Shown here: piece by piece, positions 19,015 through 21,390 of the stretch | How positions within the stretch are numbered: position 1 is the first letter of the stretch | How the letters are laid out: each line of letters opens with the position of its first letter | Source of the DNA: Hericium rajendrae | Taxonomy: Eukaryota; Basidiomycota; Agaricomycetes; Russulales; Hericiaceae | Assembly: GCA_033439255.1 (NCBI GenBank) | Contig: CM065886.1 | Span: forward strand, 2,294,001 to 2,358,000 | Reading direction: 5' to 3' | Length of the DNA stretch: 64,000 nt | Notes under the pieces: model-generated | What the model saw: the letters and a program-made list of their open reading frames with translations, nothing else | Databases searched by the model: none | Told to the model about the DNA's origin: nothing | Translations under genes and position numbers: made by a program

Positions 19015-21390
19015 TTAGACGATCAGCGCGGACTTCTCAAGGTTCACGCGCAGAATCGACTCAGCAACTGTGTGCGTTAACAAGTACCGTGAGATCGCAT
19101 AGTGACGGCGGAGGTAGAGCGACTTACCATCCCACAGTATGAAGTGCGTCGTCTTCGCGTCCTGTGACAAGACACCGTGTCGTTAGCACGCGTAGAAGAG
19201 AAGCATGGAAGGAACCGGGTACGCACGGTTACCGATGTCAGATGGCAGTAGAACGGGCGTGGAGACGGTGACTTCTCCTTGATGATACCCTGGAACTTGC
19301 GCTTCAGGTCTGCAGAGACCAGAGATCAATTGCCGCCCCGACGCAGACAGGAGGTGACAGAAACGCACATGCAGACGTGTTCTGGAAATCGTTCGGCCTG
19401 TCACCGTATGAGGTGATGTACTTCCCGAACCGGATGCCTGCGGCGAGCTTCTCCTTGAGGATATCGCACTTGTTGAGGAAGAGCACCATGTTGGTGCGCT
19501 CGATGAGCGGGTTCGAAACAATCTGATTCCAGAGGAGTACAGAGTCCTCCTATCATTCACACACCATCATCAGCGATACAGATTCTCGTGTGGGGCATCT
19601 AATGGCGGAGATGCGACGCACCAGACGGTTGACGTGCTCGTCTTCCGCAAGCACCTGATCGAAGCAGCTGATAGGCGCGAGGAATATGATGGCGGTCATG
19701 TCATCGAAGTATGGCACCCATGCAGCTGCATCACGGAAGAGATCTATCAGTTCCATGAGATATGTAAGGCCGAGAAACCTCCTTGCCTCTCTGGTGGGAA
19801 CGATGCCGATGGTCAATGTCGAGGGCCCATTAAGAGCATAGAGACAGACTTACGAGTGACCGGTGTCCGCCAACGTCGAATACATGCCAGTCGCGGCTGA
19901 CCACGGAGTCTACTATCGGGGCTCAATCTTTCATGTATGAGATTAAAAGACACCAGTTAACCCACTTTGACGACTTAGAGTGAACCGATACTCGGAAACG
20001 CCGAGCGTCTTGATGCGTGCACGTAAAATATCGTCTGCAGATCGTCCTTCAAAACACGCACAAGATGAAGCTGTGAAGCTTGGACGTACCGTCTGAGGGA
20101 ATGTACCGCGAAGAAGTGACGCGATCTAACTGGTCAAGGAAACTATGTGGCGATGTCTGTTAAGGGATCACGACTCGACAGTCAAGTCACTCACAATCCC
20201 GACATCTCCTGCAGCCTCATCTTCTGCTTCTCCAGCACCTCTCTGATGATTGAGTCCTCCCAGAGGCGCTTCATGTCCTCGCCACACATATGGATCAGCC
20301 GCCCCGGGTCGTCCGGATCGTCCCAATCAATCCCATAATCCTCCTCATTCGCCCCGCTCCCACTCCTTTTCCGCTCACGCGGACTCTGCCCCACGTCCGC
20401 ACTGTCCCGCGCACTCGTCGGGCCGCCCGCGAGCATGCGCCCAAATCGGCTCTTCCAGCCACCCGAGTTGACGGACACCTCGCGGTGCGCGAGCGACACG
20501 TCCGTGAGCGACGCGAAGTGCGCAGAGGTATGCGGGTCAGACGACGCGCAGATGGCGAGCTTGCGCACGAGCGCCTCCTCGACCTGCATCAGCGGCGAGA
20601 GGCGCATCTTGAGTCGCAGATGCTCCGGCGTGAGCTGCGGGAGCGAGGCGAGGGTCGAGGAGAATGTCGAGGAGAAGGACGCAGAGCGCGCGTGCCGGGC
20701 GAGTGCGGTATCAGGTGGGGAATAGGGCTGCGCGGTGCCCGGGCGCACGTTGGGCGACACGGAGCTCGATTGGAGGTGGAGTTGGGCCTCATGGATGTCG
20801 GTCAGAGTGTCGAGTATGAGATGGATTGAGCGGACGACGTTAAGTTGGATCACGGCGCGCCAGATTATTCGTTCGGCTTTGAACGCCTGGATCGGAGGAG
20901 CGCTTGTAAGGGATAGTTACGAGAAACCCGCAGCTACGGGCAAATTTACCTTTGGTGACGCCATGAGCTGGAAGTCTGTTACCAATGTCATCAGCTTCTT
21001 CGGCAGTCTTAGCTTTCGCTAGAAGTTCGACTCACTCTTTAGCGTGGTCGATTTGCCTACGGGCATCAAAATCATTTAATGATCCACTACAATGCTGAAC
21101 AGAGATATAAACTTACCAGATTCGCTTTGGCCTGCCAAAATCGAGCTCGTGAGTCTGCATGTTTCCGGAGGAATCGAACAATGCACACCTAACAGCAGGA
21201 TTTTCACGGGTTTAGGATTCTTCTTTGCCGCCAGCCGCTCCTGGTTGATCTCCTCGTCTATTTGCTCTGAATGCTTTCGCGCCTCCTGCTCCGCGAGAAG
21301 GCGCCGTTCCCGTTCTTCTGCCGTCTCATTTGGGGGAGGTGCAAGGGCACGCGTGAGAGGGTCGTCGAGGCTGGCTGCTACGGGAGCCAT
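19015..21390 (-). CDS. heterotrimeric G-protein alpha subunit with large insertion
   Basis: Fourteen normal exons plus one 4-nt exon close in phase (first 21390-21189, last 19067-19015) and give 528 aa. Canonical G-alpha has about 353. The P-loop is LLGQSESGKSTTLK. Helical-domain sequence follows (NFQLMASPKAFKAERIIWRA), then an insertion of about 170 residues that is Ser/Pro-rich and acidic (SASFSSTFSSTLASL, GANEEDYGIDWDDPDDPG). Switch I region is DDILRARIKTLGVSEYRF, switch II DVGGHRSLRAAW, the guanine-specificity loop FLNKCDIL, and the late motif TSVTDAKT. No N-terminal MGxxxS myristoylation signal is visible (starts MAPVAASLDD). This is the divergent insertion-bearing G-alpha class of mushrooms. 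It binds GTP and relays receptor signals at the membrane. Switch I lacks the usual RxxTxG spacing of classical subunits; the catalytic Gln of switch II is replaced (GGH rather than GGQ), which may slow GTP hydrolysis. Confidence 0.88.

Follow-up and report, generated by a model that had tools for sequence, protein, structure and literature searches.

The window, by which we mean the whole 64,000-nt stretch of Hericium rajendrae DNA that was analysed, contains a complete G-alpha gene (L013) on the reverse strand, spanning positions 19015–21390. The gene model opens with an ATG at 21390, closes with a TAA ending at 19015, and is composed of 14 exons and 13 introns of 52–72 nt encoding 531 residues. 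Its product matches the Pfam G-alpha profile PF00503 with 323 bits and carries hallmarks of G-alpha proteins, including the P-loop GQSESGKS, the switch I Arg and Thr in RIKTLG, and NKCD at the NKxD motif. The position of the catalytic Gln of DVGGQ, which we take to be Q204, is occupied by a histidine (DVGGH, 19877–19863). The gene is called a G-alpha because of the whole-profile match and not because of the catalytic Gln, and GTPase activity is no part of this claim.

In the best-supported reading, the switch II codons of this gene are distributed over three exons, all on the reverse strand. Exon 8 (19854–19912) terminates in DVGGHRSL and is followed by intron 8 (19791–19853; 63 nt, GT-AG, gtaagt..ccaccag, phase 0). 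Then come the four bases AGAG (19787–19790; exon 9), which hold codon AGA (Arg380) and open the next one, GCT (Ala381), with its first base, intron 9 (19726–19786; 61 nt, GC-AG, gcaagg..gatgcag, phase 1) and exon 10 (19622–19725), which begins CT-GCA-TGG (A-A-W-V-P-Y-F-D-D). With splice borders marked by slashes, the letters read CTC/gtaagt (exon end at 19854), ccaccag/AGAG/gcaagg and gatgcag/CTGCATGG from 19725; that is, a 4-nt coding exon bounded by an acceptor and a donor (CAG/AGAG/GC). An earlier note on this DNA had proposed such a layout, and its positions and intron lengths proved exact when the letters were checked. Based on the sequence, we infer that switch II is split by two short introns 4 nt apart and that the AGAG between them is a micro-exon supplying a conserved arginine, a reading to which we assign a probability of about 0.93. 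The joined transcript would then read ..CGGTCACTC-AGAG-CTGCATGG.

With AGAG included, all 14 exons join into one frame that stays open for 531 codons up to the stop, and the switch II product is DVGGHRSL-R-A-AW. The exons ending at 19854 and starting at 19725 are indeed out of phase, as the same note had observed: joining them directly, with AGAG skipped, leads to a stop at codon 389. Retention of intron 8 results in a stop at codon 387, retention of intron 9 in one at codon 399, and retention of both also gives an early stop, with codons 387–399 as the range over all forms with skipping or retention. Because each of these events ends the frame early, inclusion of AGAG would be needed for the normal full-length product; its regulation is possible. 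The exon is thus required for the frame, although other open readings that avoid AGAG exist.

Both introns fit the lengths of the eleven other introns of the gene. Splice sites were scored with PWMs trained on 78 introns of at most 150 nt from the well-aligned core of the family; L013, L015 and L018 contributed no switch II introns to it. Longer introns and those lying in N-terminal or helical parts that align poorly were omitted as well; these included three GC calls of low confidence (L010, L011 and L019) and three more of the kind in the helical part of L015. Intron 8 has a donor of 7.77 bits and an acceptor of 6.48 bits, values usual among the training introns, and a YTRAY motif lies 23 nt before its 3′ end. 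The GC donor of intron 9 scores –3.02 bits with a PWM trained on GT donors only (no GC in the set), and 5.49 bits if position +2 is read as T. GC-AG introns typically have an otherwise strong donor context, AG/GCAAGT; the context here, GAG/GCAAGG, matches its AG and GCAAG and differs in the last base. The intron ends in an AG acceptor and contains a branch-site-like CTGAT 22 nt from its 3′ end.

We identified 28 G-alpha matches in the genome (46.8 Mb, 19 contigs), whose intron-rich genes with their short introns would fit a basidiomycete. The matches correspond to 11 genes with a switch II; the truncated fragment L017 and the Arf gene L021 were excluded. Three of the 11 are canonical (L009–L011) and eight, including the window gene, belong to an expanded group. 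Within the latter, L014 and L020 are intronless at switch II. Spliced alignment places a single phase-0 intron in L012 and L016 at the exact site of intron 8 of the window gene, and a single phase-1 intron in L019 at the exact site of its intron 9. L015 has both introns, GT-AG and 59 and 50 nt long, around a 4-nt exon of its own, CGGC (R-P). Neither of the two contains YTRAY in the stretch tested, as is also the case for 28 of the 78 training introns. L018 carries a 9-nt micro-exon, AGGGGTCAG (R-G-Q; G000:C10:1349589-1349597, reverse strand), between a 46-nt GT-AG intron and a 48-nt GC-AG intron (CAG/GCAAGT), the second of which sits at the intron 8 position. The same residues, RGQ, are found without an intron in its sister L014 (support 100/98). 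Altogether, switch II of these genes has three intron positions within 13 nt, and three of the eight expanded-group genes have a micro-exon there. All nine genes whose switch II can be read without a 4-nt exon have the switch II arginine, as do the two that depend on one. We take Arg380 to be R208 in G-alpha-i1 numbering, presumably a residue with a role in the active conformation of G-alpha. Its aligned counterpart in the best solved-structure match, 8xqp_A, is the second Arg in GGQRSERKKW.

Spliced alignment with foreign paralog proteins supports the same exon. Queries for each target were nine of the ten other genes (L018 left out), including the three canonical G-alphas that lack these introns. 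AGAG was chosen by nine of nine queries in the window gene and CGGC by nine of nine in L015; the query proteins came from paralog models built with the window protein in its micro-exon reading, a circularity absent for L009–L011, L014 and L020, in which switch II is contiguous in the DNA. When the AGAG acceptor was forbidden, seven of eight queries lost 2.8 points and moved to a product reading RSLVTAW, and the eighth took another intron 2.4 points lower (crude DP scores). Forbidding the CGGC acceptor of L015 cost all eight queries about 13 points. For L018, the 9-nt exon was chosen by six of ten foreign queries, a 103-nt intron by three and a 94-nt intron by one.

Chance levels were obtained from 20,000 dinucleotide shuffles of each interval, the motif being an Arg-coding 4-nt exon left through GT or GC and flanked by introns no shorter than 45 nt. 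This motif arose in 263 of 20,000 shuffles of the window interval, and with sites at least as strong as those observed in 6, so that the layout goes beyond chance. The corresponding counts for L015 were 345 and 0. For the L018 interval, a 9-nt exon encoding R-x-x appeared in 794 of 20,000 shuffles and one encoding RGQ in 6.

The claim that inserting AGAG is the only way of restoring phase did not hold. Allowing either one intron of 40–140 nt or an exon of 1–12 nt between introns of 45–80 nt, we enumerated 25 open readings, 13 with one intron and 12 with two. Three of these keep the length of switch II, namely RSLRAAW from the micro-exon, RSLVTAW from an intron starting at 19849, and RRFLAAW from weak sites, and an enumeration of two-step splicing returned the same three length-preserving products. 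A further reading, RSLVRAAW, keeps an arginine and is one residue longer; one from donor CG/gtcact was considered among the open readings and set aside. A spliceosomal twin intron, in which an inner intron breaks up a splice motif of the outer one, was rejected, because in the two-step enumeration the AGAG product always required two separate introns, whichever was removed first.

The closest competitor is a single 124-nt intron (19726–19849, reverse strand; gtctgt..gcag) with its donor 4 nt downstream, CTCGTAA/gtctgt, and the exon ending at 19850, which would give DVGGHRSL-V-T-A-W, and with it the tryptic peptide SLVTAWVPYFDD, with no micro-exon at all. It is in frame, keeps the length of switch II, uses ordinary GT-AG borders, falls at the intron position of L019 and is only 2.8 points worse in DP; we nevertheless disfavour it as very improbable. 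Valine would replace the arginine found in all nine paralogs that need no 4-nt exon, and its donor scores 2.83 bits, a level to which 6 of 78 training donors descend. It would also bypass the GTAAGT (7.77 bits) 4 nt upstream, the exact donor site of L012, L015 and L016. If this reading were true, a consensus donor exactly at a paralog intron site would therefore be a coincidence, since across the 11 loci only 0.25% of positions reach such a donor score or a higher one. Of the 78 training introns, a set limited to 150 nt, 77 are shorter than 124 nt; intron length by itself does not settle the matter, as L015 (129 and 343 nt) and L020 (225 nt) carry longer ones. The equivalent reading in L015 needs the donor GCTTTC, at a cost of about 13 points.

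The strong GTAAGT donor could also be joined in an open frame to an acceptor at the end of AGAG, so that a single 67-nt intron (19853–19787) leads directly into GCAAGG.. and switch II acquires a 20-residue insert, ARRFLGLTYLMELIDLFRDA, perhaps as an alternative isoform. Given that this acceptor, CAGAGAG, reaches –1.26 bits and is preceded by another AG, that the arginine would be lost and that no paralog model has an insertion there, we regard this as hardly credible. An error in the sequence or its assembly, or decay of the gene, might likewise be suspected from a non-canonical donor and two exons out of phase. The gap, however, amounts to four bases, the conserved Arg codon plus one, and not to one base; the remaining exons are undamaged and keep one frame through 531 codons, and the same layout recurs in a divergent paralog, so the chance of such an artefact appears negligible. 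A search of the same genome with a 96-nt joined-exon query found no spliced retrocopy, the matches being the gene's own two exons, and two collections of viral and prokaryote contigs, in which fungal genes are not expected, yielded no relatives. The micro-exon with its GC-AG intron, as originally proposed, thus stands as the best-supported reading, given the agreement of nine of nine queries, the presence of each flanking intron alone in paralogs, and the 4-nt exon of L015.

How such an exon might be included can be outlined. On the established view of intron definition, a short fungal intron is recognised as a whole, which leaves exon size of little consequence. Each of the two introns would be recognised as a short unit of its own, and a 4-nt exon would require nothing but two complete adjacent introns. 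Removal would probably be stepwise, beginning with intron 8 and its consensus GTAAGT and leaving intron 9, whose GC donor is weaker, for the second step, because both splice-site complexes would hardly fit on 4 nt at once. As for its origin, we infer that the micro-exon exists because two intron positions found separately in the family co-occur in the window gene and in L015. These two genes are divergent, with end branches of 0.57 and 1.28 changes per column; the tree leaves five of eight inner branches open, including the relation between them, and the order of intron gain and loss is not readable from it. If the intron pair was inherited from their common ancestor, it would be old.

A broader proposal is that switch II of the expanded family is a splicing hot spot, where tiny exons exit through GC donors above chance, a weak exit donor forces stepwise removal and thereby inclusion of 4–9-nt exons, and the output of active G-alpha is tied to splicing efficiency. 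We consider this improbable. GC exit was found in two of three switch II micro-exons versus none of 78 other aligned introns, a comparison that is biased because the aligner penalises GC donors.

The published cases that can be set beside this one are taken from excerpts of the cited papers. The earlier suggestion that 4 nt lies near the lower limit for fungi has to be abandoned, as exons of 1 nt (PMC12940212) and 3 nt (PMC5639578) have been published. The first, in Fusarium CYP621A, resembles the present case in that an ultra-small exon in a conserved motif was deduced from a phase mismatch and an intronless relative; it differs in being 1 nt long, present in many orthologs and confirmed by RNA reads (PMC12940212), whereas the window gene has 4 nt and paralogs showing each flanking intron alone. 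For the Fusarium exon, rescue through a cryptic exon was proposed (PMC12940212); here two neighbouring introns would suffice. Dactylellina lipS is, like the window gene, an intron-rich fungal gene with exons below 5 nt, in its case 3 nt, but it encodes a lipase and the exons are mentioned in passing (PMC5639578). The P450 genes of Phanerochaete chrysosporium are likewise a basidiomycete family with very small exons, the shortest given as 6 bp, and introns of 45–55 bp (PMC1184071), and an 8-nt example is cited in PMC12940212; they are another family, and GC exit is not mentioned in the excerpt (PMC1184071). Trichoderma virens Xlr2 also has a micro-exon; its inclusion is condition-dependent (PMC11121469), whereas AGAG is needed for the frame. 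GC-AG introns represent 1.009% of annotated fungal introns (PMC7072748). Among the literature matches listed, no description of a micro-exon in a G-alpha gene was found, and the excerpt on four Flammulina G-alphas, in which the motif DXXGQ is called conserved, mentions none (PMC9030616). Judged from sequence comparison, the micro-exon would be a new case of a kind already known in fungi; its value lies in the paralogs, which give an unusually clear picture of its possible origin as the space left by two separate introns.

Automatic gene finding often overlooks exons this small (PMC12940212), and leaving out AGAG would either shift the frame of switch II or put a valine into it. The paralogs illustrate how a micro-exon can form, with the flanking introns alone in sister genes and paired in two divergent copies. 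The family could also be used to ask whether 4-nt exons depend on ordered splicing and whether GC exit donors matter.

The Gln of DVGGQ is absent from all eight expanded-group genes versus present in all three canonical ones; its position is occupied by H, T, A, S, C, A, S and A in the window gene, L012, L014–L016 and L018–L020, respectively. These eight G-alphas may be poor GTPases.

The window gene also has a 15-nt micro-exon in the P-loop (exon 2, GQSES; 21117–21131, reverse strand), flanked by introns of 57 and 60 nt. Paralogs carry one of these flanking introns each, L019 only the upstream one and L012, L016 and L015 only the downstream one. Elsewhere in the genome, L022 (G000:C10:93200-98500) is a partial copy of canonical L009 that covers the P-loop and helical part, with switch II not seen. 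It adjoins pieces that by eye resemble genes for a protein kinase and for the large subunit of RNA polymerase II, and the region reads like captured or duplicated gene fragments.
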